In this document: in pieces, positions 22,022 through 62,847 of the stretch
Position numbering within the stretch: the stretch's first letter is position 1
Layout: every line of letters starts with the position of its first letter
Origin: a virus
DNA length: 64,000 bases
IMG/VR virus record: IMGVR_UViG_3300023179_009191
Coordinates: 33,703-97,702 of that record
Strand: one strand, 5' to 3'
Notes under the pieces: generated by a model
What the model was told of the DNA's origin: nothing
The model's database searches: none
Seen by the model: the letters and a program-made list of their open reading frames with translations, nothing else
Translations under genes and position numbers: made by a program

Positions 22022-22199
22022 TTTTCTTTTTTTTCTTTGGAAGAATAATGGGCGTGGTTTTCACGGAGCTAGGAAACGTGTTGTTTATGTCACCTGACGT
22101 CATGCCTGTGTCAGGCCCAGCATTTATGGCATTTTGAGACATGGTTCTTTGCACAAATGGAGAAATAAATTCTTCGTAGAAGAACTGTTTAAAGTTCAT
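22002..22199 (-). CDS. Unknown protein with lysine tail (65 aa)
   Basis: Starts MNFKQFFYEEFISPF, typical of small phage virion proteins; the middle is flexible and the end is a run of Lys and Ile. Overlaps the stop of the tail-fibre gene (ATGA-like coupling). Confidence 0.55.
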   Translation of the reverse strand: MNFKQFFYEEFISPFVQRTMSQNAINAGPDTGMTSGDINNTFPSSVKTTPIILPKKKKKIKKKKD

Positions 22200-34137: not shown

Positions 34138-35032
34138 TAGCAACATTTCAAAGCATTTGGGCAAAGTAACAGGATATAAATCCACTTATGATCCTTCACT
34201 CTTGGTCAGAGAACCCAGAATTAACAACAGAAAGCATCTGGACATTACTGATGAAACTGTGCCTTTCACAGGTTACGATATTTGGAATGCTTATGAAGTA
34301 TCTTGTTTAACTGCAGACGGTATGCCTATTGCTGCCATTGCTAAAATTGTTTACCCTTGCAAAAATAAATATATTGTTGAATCCAAATCTATTAAGCTGT
34401 ATATGAATTCTTTCAACATGCAGGTCTTCAAGGGATCTGTGCCATGCGTTGTAAATGAATTGCAGAATACTATTGCCAGAGATTTATCTAATTTGCTTGA
34501 AACAGAGGTTAAAGTTCATGTAAGATTGGCAAAAGCTGTTTCAGATGATCTTTTTTATCCTCCAGTATTTAGCAATAAATCTTTTCCTACATTGGAGCAT
34601 AATATTGATATTTCTATGATCCAATCAAGATCTTATACTGAAGACCCATCTATTTTATCTGCCTTTGAAAGCACAGCTTCTACAGTGCAAAGATTTCACT
34701 CTGCTCTGTTAAAAAGTAATTGCCGGGTAACATCACAGCCTGATTGGGGTGATGTATATATTCATTACAAGGGCAAATATGCAATTACTTCAACATCTCT
34801 TCTGCAGTATATTGTTTCATTTAGAGATGAGTGTCATTTTCATGAAGAAATTTGTGAAACCATTTATATGCGTTTGTTTAGGCTATTCTTTCCTGAAGAA
34901 TTAATGGTAAGCTGTTTATATGTTAGAAGGGGCGGCATTGACATTAACCCAATACGTGCCAGTAACTATAGCTTGTTAGATGAAGTACTTATTGACGAGA
35001 CAAAGTATTTTACGAAAACAGTAAGACAGTAA
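34118..35032 (+). CDS. queF: QueF, 7-cyano-7-deazaguanine reductase (bimodular)
   Basis: 304 residues, the length of the bimodular E. coli-type enzyme. LGKVTGYKSTYDPSLL opens it; ESKSIK (88-93) is the NADPH-binding motif; Cys202 and Asp209 in NCRVTSQPDWG match the thioimide Cys and its Asp partner at +7; YVRRGGIDINP near the end is also conserved. It reduces preQ0 (nitrile) to preQ1 (aminomethyl) using two NADPH. Start ATG 34118 gives a normal N-terminus. With QueE and DpdA this sets up preQ1-type DNA modification. Confidence 0.93.
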   Translation: MNKVLDNSNISKHLGKVTGYKSTYDPSLLVREPRINNRKHLDITDETVPFTGYDIWNAYEVSCLTADGMPIAAIAKIVYPCKNKYIVESKSIKLYMNSFNMQVFKGSVPCVVNELQNTIARDLSNLLETEVKVHVRLAKAVSDDLFYPPVFSNKSFPTLEHNIDISMIQSRSYTEDPSILSAFESTASTVQRFHSALLKSNCRVTSQPDWGDVYIHYKGKYAITSTSLLQYIVSFRDECHFHEEICETIYMRLFRLFFPEELMVSCLYVRRGGIDINPIRASNYSLLDEVLIDETKYFTKTVRQ

Positions 35033-46447: not shown

Positions 46448-46819
46448 TTAATTTAATTTGTAGTTAAGAGATTTCAATACTTCAGTATAATTTTTTATTT
46501 CACGCAAAGATAATTCCATGGCTTTTGAATATTGCATTTGTTCGTTGTTTTCTTCTTTTTGTTCTTTTGTCTTTTTAAAATAAGTTATTTTTTTAGTTGG
46601 TACTTTATCAAAAATATTAATAAACAAATAATACAGAGAATGCTTATTAAGAGTAAGATATTTGTTTAATAGATTGCTCTTTAATGCAAGTGCATTAGAA
46701 TACATGCTAACCCACCTGTTTATCATATAAGGCATAAATAAAGATTCAGAATCTATGTTTGATAGTGTATTTTTCTTTTTATGAAAAAGAATATCTGCTA
46801 AGAAATCAAATATTGTCAT
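46448..46819 (-). CDS. Possible clamp-loader small subunit, gp62-like (123 aa)
   Basis: Start chosen at ATG 46819, which overlaps the upstream TAA by one base. FMPYMINRWVSM and VPTKKITYFKK resemble, from memory, the 'NP(F/Y)xxNR.LS' and 'xxxKRxxKWxKK' motifs of short gp62 in marine T4-like phages. If right, gp44 and gp45 lie outside the window. Weak evidence. Confidence 0.4.
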   Translation of the reverse strand: MTIFDFLADILFHKKKNTLSNIDSESLFMPYMINRWVSMYSNALALKSNLLNKYLTLNKHSLYYLFINIFDKVPTKKITYFKKTKEQKEENNEQMQYSKAMELSLREIKNYTEVLKSLNYKLN

Positions 46820-47406
46820 TAACAAATAACTTTTGATGTAGCAATAAAAATATCGTCGTTGAGTGAATAGAACAGCTCAACAATATCATTCATAAATGCA
46901 GTACTAGCGCTGTCAGTTAGATTGGTACTAAAGGCAAAGGCGGGGGCTCTTTTACCAGCAACAACATTAATACCGGTATGGCCAAGAGCAACATTATTTT
47001 TAGAGTACGTAATGCTTACACTGCACTTGCCTTTTTGCTGTGTAACCCCGCCTTGTTGATGTTCCTTATGAACAATAAGATCATCACCATCCACTTCAAT
47101 AGGAGCCTTAAGGTATTTGGAACTTAAAATATTAGCAAGCTGTGTGTTAAAGAGTCTCTGCCATGCAACTGCACCAAAGGGATCAAGATTTGGAATTTCC
47201 CAAAGAAAGTTAATAGCATCATCACTATAAATAAAATCATTGTTAAGAACGTCTTCAGAATCAATCATGCCCTCTGTTTCAACTTTCATAGGAGCTCTGA
47301 AAGCAATTATATTACCAATGGGAAGTGTCTTATCACGAAAAAACTTATAAGCAAAACGTGCATGAAGTAGCTTACCGTCATAAACTTTGATATCATTTAA
47401 AATCAT
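46819..47406 (-). CDS. DUF366-like protein (195 aa)
   Basis: VYDGKLLHARFAYKFF, IIAFRAPMKV and the MIDSEDVLNNDFIYSDDAINFL segment match from memory the DUF366 pattern (YDG..L...., DSIVAFRG, MVDLEDV). The function is unknown. It is the last gene before the glycan island. Confidence 0.55.
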   Translation of the reverse strand: MILNDIKVYDGKLLHARFAYKFFRDKTLPIGNIIAFRAPMKVETEGMIDSEDVLNNDFIYSDDAINFLWEIPNLDPFGAVAWQRLFNTQLANILSSKYLKAPIEVDGDDLIVHKEHQQGGVTQQKGKCSVSITYSKNNVALGHTGINVVAGKRAPAFAFSTNLTDSASTAFMNDIVELFYSLNDDIFIATSKVIC

Positions 47407-47444: not shown

Positions 47445-48143
47445 TTAAAGTTGCAGTATGTTAGAGATTTTATTCCAAATACCGACATCAACGATGGCGC
47501 GGTTTTTAGATCCCATACCTTCATAAATGCCTTGATTATTAAGATGATTCCTTATTCTTATTTGAGGATATGTAAGTGCTTTCTGAATTTCTTCTTCAGA
47601 GGGTACAGCAGTTAAATTATGCAAACAATATCTATCTAAGTATGTCTTATTCACATTTTGTGATGTCATGATATCTCCTATGACAACATCATCCTCTTTG
47701 AAATAATTGACAGTATTAAAGTTTTTAGCTAAAAGCTGTAGCATGTCTTGCGAGAAAATAATACAAGCTCCTGAAACAAAATGCCATGCTGGGTCAAAAA
47801 ACCCCATATAAATATTATCTTTAAGTGTTGCAAGCTTTTCTCTGATAATATCCATATTAATAAAAGTTGAGCTATTTACTCTTATTATAAAATCATAGTT
47901 ATTAAAAATACCGCTTTGAATAAGATTAATGAATTTTAAATATATCACTGGTATTCCACCTTCATTATGTATATCAGAATAATAATTTAAACTGCGTTTG
48001 CTTAAATCATTTTTTGAATTATCTGTACCATTATAAACAAAATAATAATCTTCATTGTTTTTTTCTAAATAAGCGCGCTTTATTTTATCAAAATGATTAT
48101 ATAGCGGATCATCATACGTCATAACAGCTGTGCATATTTTCAT
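47445..48143 (-). CDS. Glycosyltransferase-like protein (232 aa)
   Basis: It begins MKICTAVMTYDDPLYN and has DFIIRVNSSTFINMD and a FKEDDVVIGDIM acidic segment (compare the EDV/EDVxxG motif of beta-1,3-galactosyltransferases), so a GT31-like nucleotide-sugar fold is possible. First gene of the island by position (last transcribed). Coupled by ATGA to the broken methyltransferase. Confidence 0.5.
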   Translation of the reverse strand: MKICTAVMTYDDPLYNHFDKIKRAYLEKNNEDYYFVYNGTDNSKNDLSKRSLNYYSDIHNEGGIPVIYLKFINLIQSGIFNNYDFIIRVNSSTFINMDIIREKLATLKDNIYMGFFDPAWHFVSGACIIFSQDMLQLLAKNFNTVNYFKEDDVVIGDIMTSQNVNKTYLDRYCLHNLTAVPSEEEIQKALTYPQIRIRNHLNNQGIYEGMGSKNRAIVDVGIWNKISNILQL

Positions 48144-48730
48144 ACAGCTTCTTCTTTATATTTTAAAACGACAATATTATTATCATCCAAAACAGGAGTA
48201 TTTTGAGATAAATCTAATATGTACAACTTTAATTGATCTTTTAAAGACATCAAATTATTAACTGTTGAAACGTGTATATCTTCATAGTACATCATGCCTT
48301 TATCTGAAAGTAGTTGGTCGTAATTTTTAAAGAAAAATTCCTGATGATGCCATGCATGGCTTCCGTCGTCTATAATTATATCAAACATTCCATGTTCTTT
48401 TTTTATAAAATCTATAGTTTCTTGATAAAGCATCTTTTTTATAAAATTTTATTTTGTCATTAAACTTTGGCTGCAATTCTGCATCATATGGATCAATGCC
48501 CACAACCAAATCAGCAAAATTTAATTCAGACCATATTATTAAACTAATACCAGTAAATACTCCTATCTCTAAAATTTTAAGATTTCTACCAATACGGTTA
48601 GCCTGTGCATAAAAAGTAAATCATAAATAGGACCATATCTATGAGCTTGCCGGCCTTTTGAATTTAAATCTCCCGGAATAAAATGTTTATCGCATATAGA
48701 ATCAGACAATATTTTACATATGTTGCTCAT
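48140..48730 (-). pseudogene. Frameshifted class I methyltransferase (CmcI-like)
   Basis: Three reading frames together encode about 197 residues: MSNICKILSDS...GPIYDLLF; then AQANRIGRNLKILEIGVFTGISL...VGIDPY (SAM motif I and its acidic end); then YQETIDF...FDIIIDDGSHAWHH. Each is intact in its own frame. Shifts lie near a T5 run (about 48613) and a T6 run (48435-48440, plus strand). Either the gene is decaying or the sequence has homopolymer errors. Upstream and downstream overlaps with neighbours fit a gene that was once whole. DDGSHxxxH is typical of the cephalosporin hydroxylase/methyltransferase-24 group. Confidence 0.75.
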
Positions 48731-48734
48731 ACTT

Positions 48735-49550
48735 TTACAATTCTAAAATATTTACAAAATTATTATCAAAGGCTCTTGAAATATTTTTTATATTCCATAG
48801 GTTGTTAATATGAATGCCGTGGCTTTTAACTTCTTGTGCTCCAAAATATCCAAATTTTTTTGGTGTTATAATATTTTTAGCGTTACCTAAAAAACACCCC
48901 CACCAGGAAAAGGTACTATTTGAACAAATAATATTATTAAAAGTTAAATGAGTAGCTAAATCTAATTTAGAATTACCTGCCAGTATTTTTATATCATGTT
49001 CTTTTATTATTCTATCTAAATATTTTTTTTCATATGCATTATCGCTAATTGTGTTAGAGCCTTTGTAACTGCTTATCAAGAAATATTTTTTCCCAGGTAA
49101 ATTATCAATCAATTTATTATAATAATCAAAATGAATTATTTCTGAATTTATCCCTTCATGAATAAAGTCGCCAAGCCTTACTAAAATTAATGTATCTTCT
49201 TTATTTTCATTAATATCGGGCAGTTTAAAAAAAGTTTTTATACGCTGTTCGTAATTATTAAAAAACTCTGCATCTTGAAAATAACCGGAAACCAAATAGT
49301 TATTTTCAAGCGAAAGTTTTAAAGAAGTGCTGCCATTAATATTTTTATGATTAAAATATCCTAAATCATCTAATAAAATTGTGTTGTCTGATTTTGTTTC
49401 TTTAAAATTTAAGTGATTTGTTGTTTCTATGATGTCATTAAACTTAAAATCTGTCTGTAAATTTAATCCATTTTCTTCTGCAAGAATTCTTGCATAGCAG
49501 TATTGAAACATGCAGTTTCCAAAATTACCTATATAATTTATTTTTATCAT
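48735..49550 (-). CDS. GT11 fucosyltransferase-like (271 aa)
   Basis: YIGNFGNCMFQYCYAR (6-21) and SNSTFSWWG (210-218) are GT11 alpha-1,2-fucosyltransferase motifs. The central GDP-binding motif HxRRGD is altered to VRLGD (124-128). It would add fucose (or a similar GDP-sugar) to galactose. A paralogue lies at 52648. Confidence 0.8.
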   Translation of the reverse strand: MIKINYIGNFGNCMFQYCYARILAEENGLNLQTDFKFNDIIETTNHLNFKETKSDNTILLDDLGYFNHKNINGSTSLKLSLENNYLVSGYFQDAEFFNNYEQRIKTFFKLPDINENKEDTLILVRLGDFIHEGINSEIIHFDYYNKLIDNLPGKKYFLISSYKGSNTISDNAYEKKYLDRIIKEHDIKILAGNSKLDLATHLTFNNIICSNSTFSWWGCFLGNAKNIITPKKFGYFGAQEVKSHGIHINNLWNIKNISRAFDNNFVNILEL

Positions 49551-49564
49551 TTTTATTCTGTTAT

Positions 49565-50428
49565 TTATTCTGTTATTTTTTTATACCAATATTCTAAGTC
49601 TAATTGTTCTAGATTAAATTTACTGAAAGGAAAAAAGTCTGTTATTTTACTTTTTAAAAAGTTTTCATTTATTTGTGAATAACTATCAACCTGTAAAATT
49701 GGCAGATCATTAAATTCTTTAAATGTATAGGGGTGATTATATATTACAGGAACACATTCTAGATAAAGACATTCCCATATTCTATGGCAATCTACTCCAT
49801 TTCCAGGTGGCGCTATACAGAAGTAAGACTGTTTTAATTTTTTAATATACTCTGTAAAAGAAGCTGGCTGAGCCATTAATATACCATTAGCTTCTGTTTC
49901 AGCATTTACTTTTAGTCTTACTGGTGTGTTTGTAGAACAGTCAAAGCTTTTAAAAACTAAATTATTTTTTTGTAGATTTAACTCCATTATTTGCTTTAAT
50001 GCATTTAAATCACCGTGTGGCCATTGACTGTTGGCAATGCCAATAGGTACAGAAAAAAGTTTGGGATGAGATGTATATTTGTTTTGACAAAACCATTTTT
50101 TAATTTTAGAAGAATTAAGATATGGGTAAAAATTTGATGTTATGCCTACATCACTATTGTGTGTTATAAGAGTGAACGGTCCTTCAATTTGAGGATAAAC
50201 ATAATTAAAAAAATAATCTAAAATATGTGGGTAGGTAAAAATTATTTTAGCATATTTTAACTCATCAGGAATTTTTACGTCCGTTTTACTAGGACTAAAA
50301 ACATAACATTTAGTCTTGGTGTTTTGTATTTGTGTTTTTACTAGCTCAGAATTAAAATTATTTTCTGTATTCAGCGCTACCGTTACATCAGCAAACTCTT
50401 GAAGTTTTTCTCCAGTTACAAAATTCAT
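49565..50428 (-). CDS. Exostosin-like glycosyltransferase (287 aa)
   Basis: The C-terminal part CIAPPGNGVDCHRIWECLYLECVPVIYN (about 215-242) is the exostosin/GT47-like 'PxGxxxDxxRxxExLxxxCVPVI' motif. It probably uses a nucleotide sugar. The stop of the upstream FkbM gene overlaps its ATG. Confidence 0.65.
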   Translation of the reverse strand: MNFVTGEKLQEFADVTVALNTENNFNSELVKTQIQNTKTKCYVFSPSKTDVKIPDELKYAKIIFTYPHILDYFFNYVYPQIEGPFTLITHNSDVGITSNFYPYLNSSKIKKWFCQNKYTSHPKLFSVPIGIANSQWPHGDLNALKQIMELNLQKNNLVFKSFDCSTNTPVRLKVNAETEANGILMAQPASFTEYIKKLKQSYFCIAPPGNGVDCHRIWECLYLECVPVIYNHPYTFKEFNDLPILQVDSYSQINENFLKSKITDFFPFSKFNLEQLDLEYWYKKITE

Positions 50429-51081
50429 AATGATCTTTTGAACAGAGTATCGCCGTGTGTGTAAATAGGTATAAAGTTATTAGCGGTGAGGAAATTTATA
50501 AGCTGCTGATTACTGGGGGCATTAGTATAAAAATCAGAATCAAATTCTGCAATAATAAATTTTACTGTGTCTATTAATTCTTCAAGCCCAAGCAGTAAAT
50601 TATATTCGCCTCCTTGAAGATCTAAGCATAGCATATCAACTTGTGTTATATTTAAATTTTTTAAAATCGATTTTAAAGTTTTAGACTGCACTTTTATTTT
50701 ATTCATAGGAGCATCAGCCACATCTTTATGTTGATAAATTGAAGAAATACCAGCATTATGTGCAGGACAATTTGCAGTATCAAAGCTGTGAAAATTGATT
50801 TCACCTTCTATATTTGAAAGTGCATAATTAAAAAATTTTATTCTGCCTTGGCTGTTTTGTATATTGTGTTTGCATACGTCTACACACTCTGGGTTACATT
50901 CAAAAGATAAAATAGTGGCATTAGGGTATAATATTTCTAATTGCAATGCATCAAGCAAGTCTCTTGAACCACATTCTACAATTACTTTTATGTTTTGTTT
51001 ATCTTTAATATGTTCAGTAAAATCTGGCTGAACATAAGTTGCAGTTGGGGTTGTTACATTTCTAATATATTTAAAATTCAT
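50425..51081 (-). CDS. FkbM-family SAM methyltransferase (218 aa)
   Basis: VIVECGSRDLLD (SAM loop), ILSFECNPECVDVCKHN, and VDMLCLDLQGGEYNLLLGL follow the FkbM pattern. These enzymes methylate sugar hydroxyls. ATGA overlaps at both ends. Confidence 0.85.
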   Translation of the reverse strand: MNFKYIRNVTTPTATYVQPDFTEHIKDKQNIKVIVECGSRDLLDALQLEILYPNATILSFECNPECVDVCKHNIQNSQGRIKFFNYALSNIEGEINFHSFDTANCPAHNAGISSIYQHKDVADAPMNKIKVQSKTLKSILKNLNITQVDMLCLDLQGGEYNLLLGLEELIDTVKFIIAEFDSDFYTNAPSNQQLINFLTANNFIPIYTHGDTLFKRSL

Positions 51082-51926
51082 AAACTAAATTCTCCTAGCT
51101 GTTTAGAGTGTACGTGTAAATTACAAATAGGGATTTGTTGATTATCATATATTATATAAGGCTGCTTATTAAATTTATCAACTACTGGTTTTATAGTATT
51201 TGATACTATGAAGCGGTCAACCAACCGGTTAACATTGCTAGGGTGAACAGTGTTTTTAGGTGCATTACCTGAGCCTCCAAGATACTGCCCATACGTACTA
51301 GGATCAAAAACAAAATTAAATTTTACAAAGCTTTTATCTTGTGGTGTGCTCGGTAAAATACTAATTAAATCGCTGTTTTTGTGTATGTGACCCAGGAGCT
51401 TCATTTCATGCGGCATATCGTTAAATAAAGACTTAAGTCTGGGTATACCTAATGTTGCTAAATCAAAAAGGTTATCACATATTTCTACTAAACTGTGATA
51501 TGTTTTTATATAAGTAAACCCACAAACTAACTCATCTTCTTTATGCTGCGTGAAGCTAGCATTTGTGGTTGTATCATTTAATATGGAGATAAAATTGTGA
51601 ACATTTTTATAAATTAAAACATCATTATCAAAATGAATGATGTCATTTATTTTAGTTTTAAGCAAAAAATCATTTATATAAAAAAATCTTTCAAAAGATG
51701 TTTTCCACAGAGGGTCGCAGTCATTTTTATAAAAATCAATGCTTTGCAATCTGTTAATTGCTAGATCGTTTACATTAATTACATTGACTTCATTAACGTT
51801 GGTTAAGTTAGCATCTGTTAATAGAAAAATTTTATAGTTTGTTTGTGTTTGCTTTATTTGTTGTATGCATTGTGCTAAATGTTTTGGAAAAACACCGTCT
51901 TTGTGAAATAGTATAAAGTGTGTCAT
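51078..51926 (-). CDS. Glycosyltransferase with DxD-like motif (282 aa)
   Basis: Start at ATG 51926; the longer frame runs into the next gene. YKIFLLTDANL and IIHFDNDVLIYKN (Asp-x-Asp at about 105-107) suggest a GT-A fold of the GT8/GT32 kind that needs Mn. Acceptor unknown. Confidence 0.65.
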   Translation of the reverse strand: MTHFILFHKDGVFPKHLAQCIQQIKQTQTNYKIFLLTDANLTNVNEVNVINVNDLAINRLQSIDFYKNDCDPLWKTSFERFFYINDFLLKTKINDIIHFDNDVLIYKNVHNFISILNDTTTNASFTQHKEDELVCGFTYIKTYHSLVEICDNLFDLATLGIPRLKSLFNDMPHEMKLLGHIHKNSDLISILPSTPQDKSFVKFNFVFDPSTYGQYLGGSGNAPKNTVHPSNVNRLVDRFIVSNTIKPVVDKFNKQPYIIYDNQQIPICNLHVHSKQLGEFSL

Positions 51927-51928
51927 TA

Positions 51929-52651
51929 TTAAAGAAAAATATAATTTGTATTGCTGTATATATAGTGGCACCCGTACTTCGGATCATACTTTTTCGGTAT
52001 TAAAACAAATATTTCTGTATCAGTACTAGCAAGATGTTTAATTGTAGAAGCTAAATTGGACGGGCCAGAATATAATGTTATAAATCTTTTACAAGACATT
52101 AAAACATCTGAATAATGCATTAAGTCATTAATATCAATTTTTTTAAATTTATTTGCAGTATCAAAATGAGTACCATAAGTAACTTTTGAGTGAGTAACTG
52201 ATAATGTATCTTCATTTAAATCAAATTTGTTAAGAATGTTTAAAATATTTTGTGGGTTATAATTGCTTGCTATGGAATGAATTGAAAGATCGAGAACGGT
52301 TTTTTTCTTTAAATCAGATATAAAATTTGGTTTATAATAAATTTTAGGATATTCTATATTTGTATTAAATCCGTAAACTCTCTGAACAACCTGTATATGA
52401 TTTAAGCTTCCAGGCTGCTCAAATAAAGCACATTTATCTGACCACGATAAATCAGTAGAATCAACTTTTTCTTTTTCTATAAAGGGATTGAACCCCCAAA
52501 CAATATCATAAATTTGCTGGTTTCTTACTGCATTATGTTTTGATAAAAAACACTTTTTGCCATGTTGAGAACACAATTCTGGTATTAGTGAATGCGCTAA
52601 ATTATCTCCTAGTCCGCCCCAAGGTTGATAAATTGTAATTTTTTCTGTCAT
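51929..52651 (-). CDS. Glycosyltransferase-like protein, GT-B type possible (240 aa)
   Basis: WGGLGDNLAHSLIPELC near residue 11 is like the Gly-Asp loop at the start of heptosyltransferase-type (GT9) proteins, and SGPSNLASTIKHL near 210 resembles the sugar-nucleotide site. ATGA coupling. Confidence 0.5.
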   Translation of the reverse strand: MTEKITIYQPWGGLGDNLAHSLIPELCSQHGKKCFLSKHNAVRNQQIYDIVWGFNPFIEKEKVDSTDLSWSDKCALFEQPGSLNHIQVVQRVYGFNTNIEYPKIYYKPNFISDLKKKTVLDLSIHSIASNYNPQNILNILNKFDLNEDTLSVTHSKVTYGTHFDTANKFKKIDINDLMHYSDVLMSCKRFITLYSGPSNLASTIKHLASTDTEIFVLIPKKYDPKYGCHYIYSNTNYIFL

Positions 52652-53427
52652 AGATTTATATACTTATATCTTAGGTTTTCAATTAAAAGATCTACTCCAA
52701 GCTCTTCATTTTTACTGTTCCAACCTGTTTTAGGAATTGCATTTATAATATTATCTCCATCGCATAAAAAACCGGACCAGAAGCTAAAAGAACCTTGACT
52801 TAGTATTAGGTTATTATGAGCGGATAGAAAAGATATTGTATTTTTTTCTGTATCATTGAAAATTGATGCATTGTATTTTTTTAGCATATATTGAATAGAC
52901 TCATGCTTAGGATAATCAGTACAGATAGTTATTTTGCCTGGTAAACATAGTCTTATAGCTTCTTCATAATATTCTGTTGGTAGTAAATTTTTTCTCAGGT
53001 TAGGACAAAGTAAATCACCCAATCGTATATGAATAGCTATATCAGTGCTGTTAGTAGAATACGGAGTTGCGTTAAACCACTTTTTAATATTATCTCTAAA
53101 TGGTATATAAAATTTTTTACGCTGAAAATAGCCATCAAGTATTATTTTTCTGGGTGTACTGTCATTAATAACTTCTGCTATTTCAAAATCAGGATGGCAG
53201 AAGTCATCAGACAAACTGTGATTTCCTAAATGCTGTACTGGTGCATCATGGTGCGCATATCCAGGCTGATCATAATTTAAATCTATACCTCTTAGCATAA
53301 ATTCTCTATCAACATCTGTTGGGCCAAATAGTTTAAACTTTAAGTTTTCAGAAATAATTCTTGCTGTAAAATAAGGAAACAATTGGTTTCCAAATCTGCC
53401 CATGCATTTTTTAATTGTTACGCTCAT
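52648..53427 (-). CDS. GT11 fucosyltransferase-like paralogue (259 aa)
   Basis: Start at ATG 53427 (a TTG 9 bases upstream is less likely). CMGRFGNQLFPYF, AIHIRLGDLL (closer to HxRRGD) and SQGSFSFWSG match GT11. Diverged copy of the 48735 gene. Confidence 0.8.
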   Translation of the reverse strand: MSVTIKKCMGRFGNQLFPYFTARIISENLKFKLFGPTDVDREFMLRGIDLNYDQPGYAHHDAPVQHLGNHSLSDDFCHPDFEIAEVINDSTPRKIILDGYFQRKKFYIPFRDNIKKWFNATPYSTNSTDIAIHIRLGDLLCPNLRKNLLPTEYYEEAIRLCLPGKITICTDYPKHESIQYMLKKYNASIFNDTEKNTISFLSAHNNLILSQGSFSFWSGFLCDGDNIINAIPKTGWNSKNEELGVDLLIENLRYKYINL

Positions 53428-54301
53428 AATGCTCAATTAATTTATAAAGATTTTTCATAAAGCCTACAGGTGTAAGATACTCATTACCAAAGTTAAAAAG
53501 ATTTTGCTGTATATTAATAAGACTATTATTTTTTGAATTGTAAAAAGATTTCACTGCATCAACTATATCTTGATCAGGCATTATTCTTACTATGTAATCA
53601 TCATAGTTAAAAATTTCTTCAAAAGGTAGAGCGCAATCTGTGTCAACCAATATGGGTATTCTACCCATGCAGATTGTTTGACAAAATCTATAGCTATAAT
53701 TACCCCAACCTCTTATACATAAAGTAAAAAGATTTTTAGAAATATTATTATAAAATTCATTAACTGATTTTTTTTGAATTTGCTCTGTAATATTATTGTT
53801 TATGCATTCTTCTGAAGAAGATGTGCCCCACTTGGGGCCATTTTTAATAATAAAATCTGTTTTAATATTTGAATTTTTTAATTCATTTAAATATTTTTCT
53901 CTATTAAATCTATCGCTAGCACCACAAAAGCCAACAGAGCACTCACCTGAATAAGGTATAAATTCTTTATTAGGTACTCTTTCTTCTGCAAGAGAAGTAA
54001 GAGAAAATTCATTTTTAAATTTTTTTGATTTGAGTAAATTGTTTTTAAAATTATAACCTATAGAAATGGGAATATATCCTTCTTCTATGTCACCTTGACC
54101 TAAAAAAACTACTTTTTTACCAAAGTTTTTTGACTTGAGTATAAATTTTTTTAATGACTCTTTTGAGTGATATATATTGTTATCTATTGAAGTACAAATA
54201 AAATAATTGCAATCCTGAGGTGAAGCAAATTTAAAAACCTTTTTAAAACACTCAGTAATATCAGAGCCTTTTAAAAATTCTTCTTCATAATAAACATTCA
54301 T
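53411..54301 (-). CDS. Exostosin-like glycosyltransferase (296 aa)
   Basis: SVGFCGASDRFNREKYL, CIRGWGNYSYRFCQTICMGRIPILVDTDCALP (about 207-238) is the exostosin-like core; a close relative is at 55258 (CTRGAGNFSYRLYETLSCGRIPIFVNTDCVLP). Confidence 0.75.
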   Translation of the reverse strand: MNVYYEEEFLKGSDITECFKKVFKFASPQDCNYFICTSIDNNIYHSKESLKKFILKSKNFGKKVVFLGQGDIEEGYIPISIGYNFKNNLLKSKKFKNEFSLTSLAEERVPNKEFIPYSGECSVGFCGASDRFNREKYLNELKNSNIKTDFIIKNGPKWGTSSSEECINNNITEQIQKKSVNEFYNNISKNLFTLCIRGWGNYSYRFCQTICMGRIPILVDTDCALPFEEIFNYDDYIVRIMPDQDIVDAVKSFYNSKNNSLINIQQNLFNFGNEYLTPVGFMKNLYKLIEHYERNN

Positions 54302-54394
54302 TTCTTTACTGCAATTACAGTACCATTTCTATCATTAGGATCATCATATACAATATTCCATAGTGTACTCTTTTACTTTTTCAAATAGTGTCAT
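54298..54394 (-). pseudogene. Frameshifted 31-aa ORF
   Basis: MTLFEKVKEY then, one base out of frame, LWNIVYDDPNDRNGTVIAVKK. Removing a single A restores an ORF whose start overlaps the upstream stop (ATGA, with AGGAG) and whose stop overlaps the next start (ATGA), as for every intact gene here. The length of 97 bases is one too many. Function unknown. Confidence 0.5.
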
Positions 54395-55257
54395 AAGTGG
54401 CTCCTGATATAATTAGAAAAATTTGATGATTTAAATGTTTCATAAGCTTTTTTACAGTTTAATTTCATTTTTTGCTCTCTTTCTACTGAAATATCTTCAA
54501 GCAAATTTTCAATATTATCATAATTCATTTTTTCAAAATCTTTTTCTTTAATAGAAATAATTGTATTGTCCCAATCCCAATCAGGTAAAATCCAGCTATC
54601 TGATACTAAAATTGGAATTGTTTGTGCATGCAAGCTTTCCCAGAATCTGACAGAAGAAGCTGAACTTCCCCTAGGACATAGAGAATAACGACTGCGTTGC
54701 AAAATATCTTGATATTCTTTTTCTTCTTTTGCTTTAGCATCTTTACTAATAACAACATTTGAGTCAACATGATAATTGTCTCTATAAACTATGCCAGGAC
54801 CATTGATACGACTCTTCATTCTCATTCTTATAGGGTGAGAGGTGTATGTTCCTACAAATGAAAATAATATATCTTTTTTAACACTATCAAAATCAAATGA
54901 GCTTGTAAATGGTATGGGTATAATCTCTACCTCAGAAATTGTATTTCCTTTCTCATGCAAAGGTGAAAATACTTTTGTAATATTGAGATGTTTAAAATAT
55001 AGTTTGAGCATCATATAACTATCATGCTGACAAACAGTAAAATTATTTTGTTGTTCTGTTTTATATTTGCTTAATGTTTTGAAGTAGAATTCAGCTGGCT
55101 GCCTGTTGGGATAATCAAGCCAATGCCCATTTAATATTTGAGTCCAGGGAACAGCTATATAATTAAGATCATTGCTATTCTTTAGCTGCTTAAAGCATTC
55201 ATATTCAACAGGAAATTTCTCATAAGGAAAAATGTCTTCAAAAAAAGAAATAACCAT
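54391..55257 (-). CDS. Exostosin-like glycosyltransferase (288 aa)
   Basis: SRYSLCPRGSSASSVRFWESLHAQTIPILVSDSWILP (about 206-242) matches the exostosin-like motif; an N-terminal VISFFEDIFPYEKF and CQHDSYMML region precedes. Adjacent to its relative at 55258 with no gap. Confidence 0.75.
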   Translation of the reverse strand: MVISFFEDIFPYEKFPVEYECFKQLKNSNDLNYIAVPWTQILNGHWLDYPNRQPAEFYFKTLSKYKTEQQNNFTVCQHDSYMMLKLYFKHLNITKVFSPLHEKGNTISEVEIIPIPFTSSFDFDSVKKDILFSFVGTYTSHPIRMRMKSRINGPGIVYRDNYHVDSNVVISKDAKAKEEKEYQDILQRSRYSLCPRGSSASSVRFWESLHAQTIPILVSDSWILPDWDWDNTIISIKEKDFEKMNYDNIENLLEDISVEREQKMKLNCKKAYETFKSSNFSNYIRSHL

Positions 55258-56166
55258 TTATATATTATAATTTATATATTGGGCAAATCCATCGGGAGCT
55301 AAAAATTTCTCATATATACTTCTTGCTTCTTTTTGCCTGTTTATATAATCAGTTGGTGAAGCGTTTTGCCAAAATTCATTAATTTTATTATTAAGTTCTT
55401 CTGGGCTATCAACAAATACACACAACTTTTTCCAATCTATCCTATCTTCACAAGGCAAAACACAATCAGTATTTACAAAAATAGGTATACGTCCACAAGA
55501 TAAAGTCTCATAAAGTCTGTAAGAAAAATTTCCTGCTCCTCTTGTGCATAAAACTAAATCCGAGTTTATTATGTTGTTTATGTATTCAGTTCTGACTTGT
55601 TGATTGTGGGGAGAACCGCCCCAAAAACAATCTCTTATAATAAAGTTTGTTTGTATTTGATTATTATTTTTTAAGATTTCAATACAATTTTTTCTTATAG
55701 GGTTAGAAAAAACCCCACAAAAACTTACTACTAGAGTTTCTTTTTTCTCTCTACACTTAAATGGTATTATATCATTAAAATCTTGACTCCATGCTGGCAT
55801 TGCATATTCATTATTTTTTTGTTTTGATTTTAATAAAGATGTTCTAAAAAGAGTAATACTACTGTCTAGAAATGATGGTTTATCATTATCATCATTATAA
55901 AAAGCTAATATTTTTTTATTATATTTTCTGGCTTCAAAAATATAATCGCCAATCTTATAATTAAGTTTTTCTGGAAATAAAAACACATCACATTTTTCCT
56001 TAGTTGTATAGGTTACATGCTGCTCAATAGATACTCTCCATTTTTGGCTGTTTTTAAAGTCATTATCTTTTTGAAGAACATGTTCACTAAAAAATGGCAG
56101 GAGTAAAAATTGTTCTGAACAAAAATTATTAAAATCTGTATTGTCTTTATCAAACCAAATTTTCAT
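55258..56166 (-). CDS. Exostosin-like glycosyltransferase (302 aa)
   Basis: VVSFCGVFSNPIRKNC and LVLCTRGAGNFSYRLYETLSCGRIPIFVNTDC place it closest to the 53411 gene, a tandem-duplicate pattern. Overlaps the next gene by 17 bases. Confidence 0.75.
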   Translation of the reverse strand: MKIWFDKDNTDFNNFCSEQFLLLPFFSEHVLQKDNDFKNSQKWRVSIEQHVTYTTKEKCDVFLFPEKLNYKIGDYIFEARKYNKKILAFYNDDNDKPSFLDSSITLFRTSLLKSKQKNNEYAMPAWSQDFNDIIPFKCREKKETLVVSFCGVFSNPIRKNCIEILKNNNQIQTNFIIRDCFWGGSPHNQQVRTEYINNIINSDLVLCTRGAGNFSYRLYETLSCGRIPIFVNTDCVLPCEDRIDWKKLCVFVDSPEELNNKINEFWQNASPTDYINRQKEARSIYEKFLAPDGFAQYINYNI

Positions 56167-56806
56167 AATTATGCTTTATCATATCAAGTAATTTTTGTTT
56201 ATTTTCAACTCCAACAACATAATTAGCATGATGTACTAAAATTTCTTTTGGTGGTATTATATTTGTAATACCATCCCAGTTAAATGTACCATCAGTATTG
56301 TTAAAAAAATTACCAATAGTATAATATTTCTTATTATCTAAAGTCTTACACCTTGCAAGATGTTTAAATTCATTTAAAGCTACTTGATCATTAACAAGAT
56401 GTCTAAAGTTCTTTTTTATAGTTTCAAATAAGTTAAGTGTTCGAAAATTACTTTGACATGCAAAAAAACCTGCACATAAACTCCCTCTATCTTCTTGGCA
56501 TACGATATCTACATTTTGTAGATTGCTCTCAAGATCTTTAAGAAAAGGTTTAAAAAATTGCACATCGCAATCTGCAAAAACAAACCAATTACCTTTATTT
56601 TCATTTATTGCATCCAATATTAAATTAATCTTATATTCCATTGAATCTAGCCACCCCTGAGACATGAAAGCTCCATGTATTGTTGTTTGCGGGTGGTATA
56701 AAACTCTAATAGCTGCTTGTTCTTTGGAATATATACTTCTCAAAGTATACTTAAAACTATCATACATACTTTTATGACTATCGCTGTAGTGGGTATATAT
56801 TTTCAT
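56150..56806 (-). CDS. Nucleotide-diphospho-sugar transferase-like (218 aa)
   Basis: NWFVFADCDVQFFKPF (Asp-Cys-Asp, a DxD motif near 74-76) and DIVCQEDRGSLCAGFFACQSN resemble GT77-type galactosyl/xylosyltransferases. ATGA coupling. Confidence 0.7.
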   Translation of the reverse strand: MKIYTHYSDSHKSMYDSFKYTLRSIYSKEQAAIRVLYHPQTTIHGAFMSQGWLDSMEYKINLILDAINENKGNWFVFADCDVQFFKPFLKDLESNLQNVDIVCQEDRGSLCAGFFACQSNFRTLNLFETIKKNFRHLVNDQVALNEFKHLARCKTLDNKKYYTIGNFFNNTDGTFNWDGITNIIPPKEILVHHANYVVGVENKQKLLDMIKHNYENLV

Positions 56807-57537
56807 TTAAAATTTTCAATATAAGTTTTTAGTTTTGCGAATTCTTCGTCCATTTCATTTTTATATTTTTGAACCCAGTCATTATTATTCCAAATATTAG
56901 TTCTTAATGCTTCAAGATTATTACTAATACTATCCATCTTACCTGTAGTTTCGCTATAATGTAAGTGTTTGATTAATATATCATGTCTGTAGATTGTTCT
57001 CTGTAATCTATCGAAAATAATTTGAGGCCATGTATCATGGTGTGTGTTCTCCATATAAGGTTCAACAAAGTAACCTGCTACATTTATATAATTTTTATGC
57101 ACAAAGAAATTAACACAAAGAGGGGGTACTCCAGCATATTTGTTGCCGGAGCCTCTCATACCATCGTTACAGTGTAGCATTATGATTTTATCTTTTGGTC
57201 CGCTTTCAAATTCTCTAATAATTTGTTCATCCCAATCTGGCGTCATAAACATCATATCATCACCTATCATAGCGTAAATATCTGAATCTATTTGTTTAGC
57301 CATATTATTCCACATGGTAGATAATCCAAGAAATTTGCCTTCATTTTTAAACATAACTGTTTTTATAAAAGGAATGTTATTACATAAGTAGGAATAATAT
57401 TTTCCTGCAGGATCATCTTCATCAACACCTAAAACAAGATAGACATCTTTACTCTTTATAGTAGTAACTAGGCTTGAGATGAGTGTGAGTAACTTATTTA
57501 GCCTATTTCTTGTGGGACACATTAATGCAATTTTCAT
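56803..57537 (-). CDS. GT2-like glycosyltransferase (244 aa)
   Basis: MKIALMCPTRNRLNKLLTLISSL is a GT2 N-terminus; DSDIYAMIGDDMMFMTPDWDE supplies the Asp-Asp donor site (about 88-108). Ends the first co-transcribed block; an 83-base gap with no clear gene follows upstream. Confidence 0.8.
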   Translation of the reverse strand: MKIALMCPTRNRLNKLLTLISSLVTTIKSKDVYLVLGVDEDDPAGKYYSYLCNNIPFIKTVMFKNEGKFLGLSTMWNNMAKQIDSDIYAMIGDDMMFMTPDWDEQIIREFESGPKDKIIMLHCNDGMRGSGNKYAGVPPLCVNFFVHKNYINVAGYFVEPYMENTHHDTWPQIIFDRLQRTIYRHDILIKHLHYSETTGKMDSISNNLEALRTNIWNNNDWVQKYKNEMDEEFAKLKTYIENFK

Positions 57538-57620
57538 AATTTATTAATAATTTATATGACATTAATTCATTTCAGACTTTATGATATATAAAAAATATTT
57601 TTTTGTAAACATGGAAAATA

Positions 57621-58226
57621 TTATTTTTTAATAAAAAACATCTGCTCTTTTCCATATTGCGTGTTAGTTGAAAGTGTTAATGTTTCTACTTTTGATATTT
57701 TAGGCTTGTGTTCTTTTAAAAGATTAAGAAATTCTTTTTCAGATATTGATAAATCAGGTACATCAACACCAAGTGATTTATTATGTGAAATTTCAACAGT
57801 TTCGCCTTTATCATTTACAGGTATAAAGAATGTTATAACTAGTTTTTCTTTTGCACTATTTAATGCATTTTTAAGAATATTCATCCATGCATAATTATGC
57901 TCTAAAACATGTCTCATATGTATGCCATCACAATCAGAGCTATAAGTTTTAAGGTCAATAAATTTTTTAATGGCAAATTTAGTGTCGCTTCCATCAACTC
58001 CTATGGCATCTTTCCTAAATCTTAAAAAACCACCACCTCCACATCCCCAGTCTTCTACTGTCTTACAATCAAGTAAGAACTGAGCAGCTTTTTCATAAGT
58101 AACAGTATCACCATAAAGGAATGCAGAAGGATTGTTAGGTAAGTTTGTATAGTAGCCATTCCATTTATTAATATTGCATTCTTGTATTACTTTATTATTT
58201 TCTATCACAAAATTTTTTACCCCCAT
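57621..58226 (-). CDS. Class I SAM methyltransferase (201 aa)
   Basis: VEDWGCGGGGFLRF (about 57-70) is motif I, GVDGSD the acidic end of strand 2, and MRHVLEHN motif IV. Probably methylates a sugar. Overlaps the next gene by 10 bases. Confidence 0.8.
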   Translation of the reverse strand: MGVKNFVIENNKVIQECNINKWNGYYTNLPNNPSAFLYGDTVTYEKAAQFLLDCKTVEDWGCGGGGFLRFRKDAIGVDGSDTKFAIKKFIDLKTYSSDCDGIHMRHVLEHNYAWMNILKNALNSAKEKLVITFFIPVNDKGETVEISHNKSLGVDVPDLSISEKEFLNLLKEHKPKISKVETLTLSTNTQYGKEQMFFIKK

Positions 58227-58852
58227 TTTTCATTAAACAATTCAGACAACCCATGTGTATATGCATAGCTATTTTCTAATAATTTATGGCTTTGTTGGTA
58301 CTTATGCAAGGCATATGCGTTATTTACTCTAGCATGTTTAAGATTTAATTTTTTAAGCGTATTAGCATAATCGTTATCTTGATACCAAAAAGAAAATTTT
58401 TCATCAAATGAGCCTATTTGTTTTTGAACATACTTATTCATTGCTATACACCAGCCCATAACTATTTTTTCTACATCAAAGCCTTCAGTAAAACTCTCTT
58501 TAGATTTAATTTGTCTTGTGGTGGGGCTAACAGAATCATAAACCGATAAAGCTTTATCGAGGTGATCAAAACATTCAGGTTCATAAACAACATCATTATT
58601 AGAAACAGCCAATTTATCCTCTTTGCTATCAATATGATTAAAAGCAATATTTAAAAATTTGTTGTAGTTAAAGTCGATACAGGGGAATAAAAATTCTGCA
58701 TTTAAATCAATTTGTTTGTTTTTAAGATTACAATTTGTCTCCATAACAATTATTTTGTTTACACATTTTGAAAGGCGAACAGAATCAATACATTCTTTAA
58801 GCATATAGTAATATTGAGGATTTTTTGTGTTTGATAATATTATTACAGTCAT
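58217..58852 (-). CDS. GT2-like glycosyltransferase (211 aa)
   Basis: MTVIILSNTKNPQYYYMLKECIDS, NNDVVYEPECFD and GSFDEKFSFWYQDNDYANTLKKL fit rhamnosyltransferase-like GT2 proteins. Confidence 0.8.
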   Translation of the reverse strand: MTVIILSNTKNPQYYYMLKECIDSVRLSKCVNKIIVMETNCNLKNKQIDLNAEFLFPCIDFNYNKFLNIAFNHIDSKEDKLAVSNNDVVYEPECFDHLDKALSVYDSVSPTTRQIKSKESFTEGFDVEKIVMGWCIAMNKYVQKQIGSFDEKFSFWYQDNDYANTLKKLNLKHARVNNAYALHKYQQSHKLLENSYAYTHGLSELFNEKWG

Positions 58853-59448
58853 AATGGGTAATTTGTTACTAGTGGATTGACAACATATATCTTCTCTTCA
58901 CAGAATATATGATTAAATTTACATGAAGCATAAAAAGAAAAATCTCCACCATATCTATACTCCCAATTACCCATTTTATCAGGAATATTGGGAATTAAGC
59001 CGCAGGGAGTACCAATGTTTCCGAGTTTTAGGGAAGGATCTTTCCATACAAAATCGTTGTATCTATAATCTAAAATAATCTTAAAAAATATAATTGATTG
59101 CTTATCAGATGCATCTATAGCTTCTCTTATTTTTTTGAAAGATCCTTTTATGTATATATCATCATCGTCGCCATGAAGAATAAAATCCCCTTTCAGATTT
59201 TTTTGATATAAATTTCTGCAGCCGTGACCCCAGAAACCAAGATTTTTTTTAATATATAAAATATTTATATTGCAATTTAAATCATTAATAAATTGTACAA
59301 TTTGTTTGCTTGCTTTGTCAAAATAATCTTCACCATCTATAGCTATATAAAGAAAGTCGTTAATTTCAAGTTCGCTTATTAAACTTTTGAGCATATTAGT
59401 TAGAGTTGGTCTACCAGTAGTTGTAAGAAAAACAGAAATTGAATTCAT
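58849..59448 (-). CDS. GT2-like glycosyltransferase (199 aa)
   Basis: MNSISVFLTTTGRPTLTNMLKSL and ILHGDDDDIYIKGSFK (about 91-106) are the GT2 start and donor-site motifs. ATGA overlaps at both ends. Confidence 0.8.
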   Translation of the reverse strand: MNSISVFLTTTGRPTLTNMLKSLISELEINDFLYIAIDGEDYFDKASKQIVQFINDLNCNINILYIKKNLGFWGHGCRNLYQKNLKGDFILHGDDDDIYIKGSFKKIREAIDASDKQSIIFFKIILDYRYNDFVWKDPSLKLGNIGTPCGLIPNIPDKMGNWEYRYGGDFSFYASCKFNHIFCEEKIYVVNPLVTNYPL

Positions 59449-60293
59449 TTTTTATTGTTTTTAAGTTTTTTGAGTGTATCAATAACTTGTTGTTCAGAAA
59501 AAAAAGGTGGTTGATTGGGATAGTGACCATGCTTTATTTTATATTTTTCTCTGCCACCATATACATTTTTTTCCCATTGCTCTTTCTTGTTTGCAATACT
59601 GCTGTTATCAATTGCACCAGGTGCTTCTGTGAGAAACTTATGTGAATCAAATATGTCCGCAAACCACCAAAAAGGCGGATGGTATCCTGCTTTTATAATT
59701 CTATATGTAAGGTCAACATGCTCCCATGCATTATAAAATTGTTCATCATGCAGCCCTACTTTCTCTAGCACATCTCTATCAAAATATGAAAACATGGCAA
59801 CTGTATGTTCAAATAGAGAGACTTTTATATTATTACCATAATCAATAATTTTCTTGGGATTAGGTTCAGAGTGTTGATTGCATAAATGTCTGTTATGTAA
59901 ATCCCATAAAACACTGGGGTCCTGTTTTCTATTAAAAGGACTGCCAGGACCGTAATTAAAATGCTTAATTCCTGAGACTTTGGCAGCTTCTATATATTTG
60001 TCAAACACGTCTTCTCTTAACAAAATAATATCATCCTCAAGCATAAAAATATGTTTGACATCTTGATTTAAAAGATACTGCAAAGCATCATTTTTGCTTA
60101 TGCCGACACCTTGATTTGTTTTGTGCTGAATAAGATTAAAATTGTTTTTGTATGTTTTTATACTATTAGAAATGTCCAGTTTACCATCATTTATAATAAC
60201 TACAGGTCCATTTATTTTGGGGAGACTTTTTAAGCATTTATCTAGGAAATCTATTCTATCACATGTAACTATGCCTATGCCTATTTTTTCCAT
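59445..60293 (-). CDS. GT2-like glycosyltransferase (282 aa)
   Basis: IGIGIVTCDRIDFLDKCLKSL, VIINDGK, NQGVGISKNDAL and HIFMLEDDIIL show the whole GT2 donor-binding order. First transcribed gene of the island; head-to-head with the 60327 late gene. Confidence 0.88.
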   Translation of the reverse strand: MEKIGIGIVTCDRIDFLDKCLKSLPKINGPVVIINDGKLDISNSIKTYKNNFNLIQHKTNQGVGISKNDALQYLLNQDVKHIFMLEDDIILLREDVFDKYIEAAKVSGIKHFNYGPGSPFNRKQDPSVLWDLHNRHLCNQHSEPNPKKIIDYGNNIKVSLFEHTVAMFSYFDRDVLEKVGLHDEQFYNAWEHVDLTYRIIKAGYHPPFWWFADIFDSHKFLTEAPGAIDNSSIANKKEQWEKNVYGGREKYKIKHGHYPNQPPFFSEQQVIDTLKKLKNNKK

Positions 60294-60312
60294 ATGGTTT
60301 TTTATATTTTAG

Positions 60313-60320
60313 TATAAATA
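60313..60320 (+). promoter_or_regulatory. T4-type late promoter
   Basis: Perfect TATAAATA, 6 bases before ATG 60327. Confidence 0.8.
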
Positions 60321-60326
60321 ATGTTA

Positions 60327-61058
60327 ATGGCAATAAATGCTTCTAATAGTAATTTTGTAAACATAAACAATCTGCCTAAATCTCAGATTGCTTTGGATCC
60401 TGATCTTCTGGTTTTGCAAACACAAAACGGTACTCAAGCTATTACTTTTGAAAATTTTAATGTAGTAAAGACTGATGAAAATGGAAATGCTACAGTAACA
60501 GGAGATTTGAGCGGCGGTTATGCTGATCTTAAATCTGCATATGTAGGCGAAATAAGTGTTGATCAAGTTTATTCTAATAATTTGCTTGGTACAACTAATA
60601 GCATGGCATATCAAAACAGAATACAGACGACAAATGGTATAATTACTTCTTCTGATTATACAATTGGTTCACCTGAATATGTTAGCCTCTATAATCTGTA
60701 TCAAACTCTCTCAGCAAATTCTTCATCTTATTACAAAAAAGTTTTTGAATCAGTAACAACAGCAACTGTAAACAATGGTGCCCAGTATTCACAAATAATG
60801 TCTGTATCTCCAACTCCGCTTAATTATCAAGGCATTAAAGTAGGCAGTCTGATTGGAGCTGATATCAATGGAGCTTCCTTCTTCTGTCTTACACCAGTAC
60901 CAAATGGTGTTTACCTTACACAGTCTCCTGCAGCTTTAAGTGGTCTTTCTTATAATTCTCTGACTGATACTCTGACGTTTGTAATTACCCTTGGGGTTGC
61001 AAATACAACAGGTCAGCCAAATTATGTAAAATGCAGATTGGTTTATTTTTACGAATAA
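60327..61058 (+). CDS. Probable tail/fibre virion protein (243 aa)
   Basis: Start chosen 6 bases behind the late box. PKSQIALDPDLLVLQTQNGTQAITFENFNVV resembles the start of several phage fibre-associated proteins; the rest is Asn/Ser/Thr/Tyr-rich beta. No S74 or collagen-like part. Confidence 0.65.
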   Translation: MAINASNSNFVNINNLPKSQIALDPDLLVLQTQNGTQAITFENFNVVKTDENGNATVTGDLSGGYADLKSAYVGEISVDQVYSNNLLGTTNSMAYQNRIQTTNGIITSSDYTIGSPEYVSLYNLYQTLSANSSSYYKKVFESVTTATVNNGAQYSQIMSVSPTPLNYQGIKVGSLIGADINGASFFCLTPVPNGVYLTQSPAALSGLSYNSLTDTLTFVITLGVANTTGQPNYVKCRLVYFYE

Positions 61059-62109: not shown

Positions 62110-62847
62110 TCAGACTTTCAATGCCTTGTCATAAATGACTAGCTGCAGTCTGGGGCTAAACTGATAGCCATGTTGCTTGCAAAGCTCGGCGACCAGTGGT
62201 GCCATCTCAACATGTTCAGATCGGCTACCACAACAAGGCATGAGCCATACCTTGCTTCTCTTAATATCAAACCGGTTTATATATTTTTCCTCTATTTCAA
62301 TGAGATCTTCTGGCTTAGTAATAACAAATTTAAATCCCGACCCATTGCGAGCATGCCAAGACAATACATCAGGTATGTATCTCTTGTTCTCCGGGTCGCC
62401 ATTGCTGGCTAGCTTGGGTGAAGTTGTGAAGGTAGCGTAATAATCTAGCTGCCAGGAAGGATCAGGCATGATTGTTGCATTAGTCTCAAAATCTATACGG
62501 GGTATGAAGCGGTATTTTTCAGAGAATGCAGCAATAAATTCTAGCAAGTTTTTTTGCTGTATGAGGGGCTCGCCTCCTGTTAATTTGAGCATACTATTTT
62601 TACGTAAATGAGAAACAAATCCTGATTCATCCATGAGCTGAAAAATTTGATCAAATGTAAGTCTGTTCTTTACAGACCAGCTAATAAAACTATCGCATCC
62701 ATGGGGTGAATCCTTGCTAGCAAATCCTTTGCAAGTCAAATTACACATGGATAAGCGCATAAAAACTGAGGGCTTACCCACATGCTCACCTTCACCCTCA
62801 ATAGTATGAAACAGCTTGTCATCTGATAAAAATATAAACTTATCCAT
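62110..62847 (-). CDS. queE: QueE, 7-carboxy-7-deazaguanine synthase
   Basis: 245 residues, radical-SAM fold. TIEGEGEHVGKPSVFMRLSMCNLTC (about 15-39), LTGGEPLI (about 89-96) and FKFVIT follow QueE. It rearranges carboxy-tetrahydropterin (CPH4) to CDG. The cluster cysteines are C35, C39 and C51 (C-x3-C-x11-C), not the usual C-x3-C-x2-C, with GCDSFISW after the third. Its early promoter (6-base rule) matches that of the DpdA operon. Confidence 0.88.
   Translation of the reverse strand: MDKFIFLSDDKLFHTIEGEGEHVGKPSVFMRLSMCNLTCKGFASKDSPHGCDSFISWSVKNRLTFDQIFQLMDESGFVSHLRKNSMLKLTGGEPLIQQKNLLEFIAAFSEKYRFIPRIDFETNATIMPDPSWQLDYYATFTTSPKLASNGDPENKRYIPDVLSWHARNGSGFKFVITKPEDLIEIEEKYINRFDIKRSKVWLMPCCGSRSEHVEMAPLVAELCKQHGYQFSPRLQLVIYDKALKV

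Follow-up and report, generated by a model that had tools for sequence, protein, structure and literature searches.

We analyzed a 64,000-nucleotide stretch of viral DNA, bases 33703-97702 of the 97.7 kb virus record IMGVR_UViG_3300023179_009191 (hereafter the window), with a focus on a gene island predicted to direct glycan assembly. The island spans 12.8 kb of the minus strand (47445-60293) and consists of 17 packed genes, g1 to g17 (Table 1), of which 16 are intact open reading frames (ORFs) and one is a methyltransferase gene with two frameshifts. Pfam and PHROGs matches assigned the products to two GT11-like, four exostosin-like, four GT2-like, and four other glycosyltransferase (GT)-like proteins and three methyltransferases, with several of the Pfam matches weak or under the curated cut-off. 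A preliminary description of the sequence had reported about 17 coupled genes of these classes, and both the gene positions and the class counts were borne out, including the broken methyltransferase, which was followed by frame translation. The same description stated that the island uses nearly a fifth of the window, which is correct; its share of the whole genome is nearer 8%, the record being a fragment and the records of relatives reaching 157-162 kb. Most neighboring island genes overlap by 4-26 bases, which is consistent with translational coupling.

Table 1. Genes of the island and its bordering features, in window coordinates.
Feature	Position	Strand	Evidence
DUF366 protein, 195 aa, left slot border	46819-47406	-	Pfam DUF366 E=5e-22
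g1, glycosyltransferase-like (weak Galactosyl_T, GT31-type)	47445-48143	-	Pfam E=2e-4, below cut-off; homologue in the slot of L185
g2, methyltransferase, two frameshifts	48140-48730	-	ORFs 48140-48433 and 48569-48730, middle in another frame; three-frame translation
g3, GT11-like (fucosyltransferase-type)	48735-49550	-	Pfam Glyco_transf_11 E=3e-5; PHROG glycosyltransferase E=7e-19
g4, GT114/exostosin-type, PBCV-1 A075L homologue	49565-50428	-	phmmer E=2e-31; profile E=7e-52
g5, FkbM-family methyltransferase	50425-51081	-	Pfam Methyltransf_21 E=1e-13
g6, putative glycosyltransferase, DND motif (D-x-D-like)	51078-51971	-	homologues 23-49% identical in slots of other phages
g7, putative GT9-like transferase (by eye)	51929-52651	-	homologues 33-53% identical in slots of other phages; WGGLGDN motif invariant
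g8, GT11-like glycosyltransferase	52648-53436	-	Pfam E=1e-5, above cut-off; HIRLGD motif; paralogue of g3
g9, exostosin-like GT	53411-54301	-	Pfam Exostosin_GT47 E=3e-8
g10, exostosin-like GT	54391-55257	-	Pfam E=3e-16
g11, exostosin-like GT	55258-56166	-	Pfam E=1e-12
g12, GT-A type glycosyltransferase (DxD)	56150-56806	-	weak GT21 match; 84-88% identity in closest relatives, 42-64% elsewhere
g13, GT2-like, recurrent early slot gene	56803-57537	-	PHROG glycosyltransferase E=2e-25; 95% identity in G010
g14, methyltransferase (class I)	57621-58226	-	Pfam Methyltransf_23 E=1e-4; 89-90% identity in closest relatives
g15, GT2-like	58217-58852	-	PHROG E=2e-7 (GT call from PHROGs only); 87-89% identity in closest relatives
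g16, GT2 glycosyltransferase	58849-59448	-	Pfam E=4e-5, above cut-off
g17, GT2 glycosyltransferase, slot anchor gene	59445-60293	-	PHROG E=3e-25
Back-to-back promoters	60294-60335		late-type TATAAATA (60313) for the 60327 gene; sigma70-like TTGCCA-16-TAAAAT facing g17
Divergent late gene, 245 aa, right border in near relatives	60321-61058	+	alignment: N-terminus conserved, C-terminus variable

The GT11 assignments were evaluated by an HxRxGD-type motif and the Pfam profile: g8 carries the full motif and scores 25.0 bits against a cut-off of 23.9 bits, and g3 carries VRLGD and scores 23.7 bits, just under it. Neither g6 nor g7 matched any family, and both were counted as island genes through conserved homologues at the same location in other phages; the annotated start of g6 is probably about 40 bases too early, and no PDB relative of g7 was found. 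The C-terminal part of g2 matched Methyltransf_24 (Pfam, E=0.007), and a search for an intact relative of this broken gene found none. Among 50,697 annotated phage records, only four contain relatives of g11 and two contain homologues of g4 (E 1e-5), both of the latter without annotation. The g17 family comprises at least 573 related stretches in viral contigs. An AlphaFold2 model of g17 (predicted local distance difference test, pLDDT, of 83) gave GT-A fold matches in the PDB; we dropped the assignment of a specificity from this search, the matches being generic (best WrtF fucosyltransferase and TarP, template modeling score of about 0.45-0.5).

Viral contigs were scanned with the helicase, the dNK gene, and the g17 family, which retrieved 80, 10, and 80 loci, respectively, the g17 loci being the best 80 of at least 573. 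This comparison with relatives, recommended in the preliminary description as a means to find the island boundaries, revealed a conserved slot between the DUF366 gene and the divergent late gene near dNK/QueE/PhoH, which starts with g17 (adjoining the late gene or dNK/QueE) and ends at DUF366. A dNK match was present in 66 of the best 80 g17 loci and a DUF366 match in 18, usually flanking g17, and the slot was not present in a few distant dNK loci (L087-L091). In relatives the slot measures 3-12 kb: L021 has 3 kb with four genes, L008 has 7.4 kb, and both nearest relatives have 12 kb. When 137 slot proteins of 18 relatives were compared with Pfam, the families identified were mostly GT2, GT11, GT47, GT10, and FkbM, joined by GDP-mannose dehydratase-type and other sugar-nucleotide genes. 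In relatives whose loci extend that far, GT-type genes occupy this region upstream of DUF366.

The left neighbors of the island are DUF366, a clamp loader, a GroES-like protein, and a helicase, and not the head genes previously placed there; the distance to the portal and head genes is a further 5-11 kb. The DUF366 protein is 69-86% identical in most slot-sharing relatives and 54-58% identical in distant ones, and has one relative only in the annotated phage collection. On the right, the divergent late gene probably starts at 60327, and the structure predicted for its product could not be used (mean pLDDT 36). We rejected this gene as an obligate glycan acceptor, given that distant relatives keep the slot without it.

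The nearest relatives, G010 (loci L113 and L002) and G009 (L201), have twelve genes in common with the island in the same order. Both carry an extra methyltransferase gene between g14 and g13, and different genes replace g7, g5, and g3-g1. It should be noted that g13-g15 are 87-95% identical to their counterparts in these relatives, as against 73-79% for the flanking helicase and dNK, which suggests recombination inside the island. Across 32 loci, the order of homologues gave 477 concordant and 24 discordant pairs, a descriptive count since related loci are not independent. Six shared genes have a nonsynonymous divergence (dN) of 0.07-0.22 and a synonymous divergence (dS) above 1, near saturation, and the low dN relative to dS places them under purifying selection. 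The promoter-proximal end of the island is stable and its distal, DUF366-proximal end turns over, with the broken g2 located in the turnover zone. The GC content of the island is 3-5 percentage points under that of its flanks here and 0-3 points under in relatives, gaps too small for a strong claim of foreign origin. The conserved slot and gene order, the purifying selection, and the presence of homologues in hundreds of viral contigs support a functional phage glycosylation island.

One island enzyme can be linked to a characterized viral system. The g4 protein matches the A075L protein of Paramecium bursaria chlorella virus 1 (PBCV-1; structures 8Q8I/8AVQ/8ASA) with about 32% identity over residues 82-287, its first 81 residues being unaligned. 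A075L is a GT114 xylosyltransferase that attaches xylose to fucose during synthesis of the core N-glycan on the PBCV-1 major capsid protein. The g4 protein keeps equivalents of the catalytic base Asp73, the phosphate-binding Arg158 and Arg208, Glu211, the Asp73-linked Asn202, and Ser72; Asp73, Arg158, and Arg208 correspond to D93, R171, and R216 of g4, which are invariant in ten slot homologues. The A075L residues Thr112, His122, Asn148, Thr150, Asn153, and His183, which contact the UDP-xylose donor and the fucose/rhamnose acceptor, all differ in g4. We therefore describe g4 as a GT114 family member and do not claim it as a xylosyltransferase; judging from these residues, its chemistry is probably kept and its specificity may differ.

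The back-to-back promoters (Table 1) recur in relatives with full intergenic sequence, where the sigma70-like element has the form TTGCCA-16-TA(T/A)AAT; the -35 element partly overlaps the coding start of the neighboring gene, so its conservation is not independent evidence. This arrangement suggests that the island enzymes may be produced earlier than the late proteins or separately from them.

Our analysis predicted no membrane segment in any of the 17 island proteins (largest 19-residue hydropathy 1.32) and in only one of the 137 slot proteins of relatives. Searches of eight records for flippases and lipid-carrier initiating transferases (PF01943, PF02397, and PF00953) were negative, with positive controls. 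No O-antigen or capsule system of the Wzx/Wzy type was found, in a search that did not include Wzy itself, but the island encodes no membrane proteins. The enzymes thus look soluble and without a lipid-carrier route, as would fit a phage virion-glycosylation system, and this absence of membrane segments, flippase, and lipid-carrier initiator favors a soluble acceptor.

Taking these features together with the homology of g4 to a capsid-glycan transferase and its retained catalytic residues, and with the precedent of glycosylated mycobacteriophage virions (PMC12363180), we propose, with a probability of roughly 0.6, that the island is an operon for cytosolic stepwise glycan assembly, most likely on a virion protein of the phage. 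We infer the activity of the enzymes, the virion acceptor, the identities of the sugars, the order of their addition, and the biological benefit from the sequences. Sugar nucleotides made by the host would serve as donors, with some relatives bringing their own dehydratases; the slot-anchoring GT2 and GT-A enzymes g17-g12 would assemble an inner chain, to which the exostosin/GT114 and GT11-like enzymes would add extensions and branches, and methyl caps would be put on sugars by the methyltransferases. The conserved promoter-proximal genes would then specify a core common to the group, and the distal genes near DUF366, which are exchangeable, would specify the variable outer sugars; related phages would thereby differ in the particle surface that they present. 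The preliminary description had suggested either a methylated, possibly fucosylated glycan on virion proteins or a change of host surface glycans. Our results favor the glycosylation function and the virion option, and methylation is supported by the two intact methyltransferases, by further ones in relatives, and by a fusion in which a g17 homologue (GT2) is joined to a C-terminal FkbM-like methyltransferase (L086:2656-4134), while fucosylation is a guess from GT11-type similarity.

Regarding the sugar donors, that description had found no sugar-nucleotide genes and supposed that host sugars would be used, which agrees with this fragment but does not extend to the family, since relatives carry GDP-mannose dehydratase/epimerase genes inside or near the slot. 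A fucose pathway drawn from the window alone was dropped, as no GDP-fucose-type dehydratase or epimerase was found in the record. About 2.1 kb outside the window (G000:C1:31550-32044; L093:14550-15044) lies a gene similar to RfaE/HldE domain II or to glycerol-3-phosphate cytidylyltransferase, which might supply an activated sugar or polyol.

Several observations weigh against a virion glycan. The divergent late gene is missing from distant relatives that retain the slot and so would be no universal acceptor; the changed uracil- and rhamnose-contact residues of g4 imply that its donor and acceptor may differ from those of A075L; g17 stands behind a sigma70-like and not a late-type promoter, yet this does not separate the possible acceptors; the glycan and its acceptor are predictions from the gene content; and similar clusters in pelagimyophages were interpreted by their authors as modifying the O-chain (PMC7029224). 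The corresponding proposal for this island, namely that its enzymes remodel the host O-chain or capsule during infection, for example excluding other phages or stopping virions from binding debris, seems unlikely to us. Besides the GT-rich host recognition clusters of pelagimyophages for which it was put forward, it agrees with the large lipopolysaccharide (LPS) gene clusters near phoH in T4-like cyanophages (PMC3037559) and possibly with the cellular relatives of g17 in Pseudomonas, Ignavibacteria, and others. However, the island encodes no membrane proteins, and no Wzx flippase and no enzyme of the WbaP/PglC or WecA/MraY type was found there or in the eight records searched; soluble enzymes would need to act on host lipid-linked intermediates, and T4-like phages are expected to have a short lytic cycle.

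It is less probable still that the island serves to add sugars to modified bases in the phage DNA, in the manner of T-even phages, with DUF366 and the Que genes supplying a 7-deazaguanine acceptor. DUF366 does border the slot in the loci that reach that end, QueC is present in eight of nine records with QueE and QueF in this one, and phage DNA with sugar-bearing bases exists (Thanatos, PMC12838424). Nevertheless, a thymidylate-synthase-type base hydroxymethylase (PF00303) was absent from nine records, which may be fragments, with positive controls; no T4-type DNA glycosyltransferase family appeared among the Pfam matches of the island; a TGT-type transglycosylase was not detected, in a search that would not cover a divergent DpdA; and 14 glycosyltransferases are far above the needs of known DNA glycosylation. 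To our knowledge, no sugar is known on 7-deazaguanine DNA, which also counts against this reading. Finally, the broken g2, the rapid gain and loss of genes, and the "stuffer DNA" idea raised for cyanophage LPS clusters (PMC3037559) would agree with largely non-functional cargo that fills the head in headful packaging and decays by turnover; we regard this as very improbable in view of the 16 intact ORFs, the gene order conserved over 32 loci, a dN/dS well below 1, and the high identity of g13-g15 to their relatives.

The record carries markers of T4-like myoviruses, including a gp23-type head protein, a gp20-type portal, and a gp15-type sheath stabilizer (PHROGs 138, 213, and 227) as well as ribonucleotide reductase, and its major head protein has about 34% identity to the best isolates. 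Of 121 ORFs, 18 have the T4-type late motif ATAAATA in the 35 bases upstream (0.9 expected), in most cases 11-14 bases ahead of the start codon, and the portal and the divergent gene at 60321/60327 are among these ORFs; the short spacing in many late genes would imply very short or absent leaders. By gene content and low identity to isolates, the record is a T4-like myovirus distant from isolates, and it resembles the divergent freshwater Far-T4 phages in its Que genes and in phoH near the structural module (Roux, 2015; PMC4360716). The main text of that report does not mention glycosyltransferases, unlike the GT island present here.

Other genes of the record deserve mention. The window encodes a formyltransferase (31442-32026), QueF (34082-35032), DUF366 (46819-47406), and QueE (62110-62847), and eight relatives have QueC; this set is suggestive of a 7-deazaguanine pathway that may serve DNA modification. 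DUF366 has been named in the 7-deazaguanine DNA modification pathway. A tail-fibre-like protein (22196-23377) has a C-terminal domain that matches distal fibre and DNA ejection protein families. Upstream of the window (G000:C1:1722-5834, locus L092), a GH16 glucanase-like gene adjoins genes for a PEP-CTERM/autotransporter-repeat protein and a second predicted secreted protein, all among phage-type genes; GH16 was not found in ten related records. This group of genes may be a clue to the host, PEP-CTERM proteins being common in Verrucomicrobia, or may reflect a chimeric contig.

Among known systems, the island shares with Vp54 capsid glycosylation of PBCV-1 a set of virus-encoded, mostly soluble glycosyltransferases and methyltransferases, the latter methylating the capsid glycans in PBCV-1 (PMC9614988), as well as the A075L homologue with its catalytic residues. 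PBCV-1, however, is an algal virus whose GT genes have scattered locus numbers and whose glycan is known, whereas the phage island is one operon with more glycosyltransferases and with changed specificity residues in g4, its glycan being predicted from the genes. Two reports describe the glycosylation of virion proteins (capsid and tail) by phage glycosyltransferases in the mycobacteriophages Che8, Corndog, and Myrna (PMC12363180, PMC12619734). Distant GT2 relatives of g17 (22-25% identity) occur in 155 kb mycobacteriophages. Che8, in contrast, has three adjacent GT genes, and we know of no exostosin, GT11-like, or methyltransferase series in mycobacteriophage virion glycosylation. The host recognition clusters and hypervariable regions of pelagimyophages and cyanomyophages are likewise variable regions rich in GT or LPS genes at a fixed place in T4-like genomes (PMC7029224, PMC3037559), but they are mixed with tail fibres and dominated by GT8, whereas the slot described here lies between DUF366 and dNK/QueE and holds a pure GT/methyltransferase operon with exostosin, GT11, and GT2 types. 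Variable regions rich in GT genes were thus already known from T4-like phages, as was the glycosylation of virions by phage glycosyltransferases; new are the fixed, pure GT/methyltransferase slot of an uncultivated T4-like group, in which the gene order is core-plus-variable, and the connection between one slot enzyme (g4) and the synthesis of chlorovirus capsid glycans.

Islands rich in GT genes are found repeatedly in aquatic T4-like phages and have been considered as stuffer DNA, as a means to change the host O-chain, or as serving to coat the particle. The slot offers a clean case: its operon is purely GT/methyltransferase and lacks membrane components, one of its enzymes is homologous to a proven capsid-glycan transferase, and its architecture is core-plus-variable. 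A bolder proposal, which we offer tentatively and consider rather doubtful in its full extent, is that uncultivated T4-like aquatic phages carry in this fixed slot a modular, collinear virion-glycan assembly line, with conserved core genes first and swappable outer-sugar genes last, placing large, methylated, chlorovirus-like glycans on their particles; no more elaborate glycosylation of proteins by phage-encoded enzymes would then be known, and the slot would diversify phages in a serotype-like way. If the virions do carry a glycan, the surface coats of environmental phages would be swappable, with possible effects on adsorption, protease resistance, grazing, and host range, and a capsid-glycan chemistry would connect phages with giant algal viruses.

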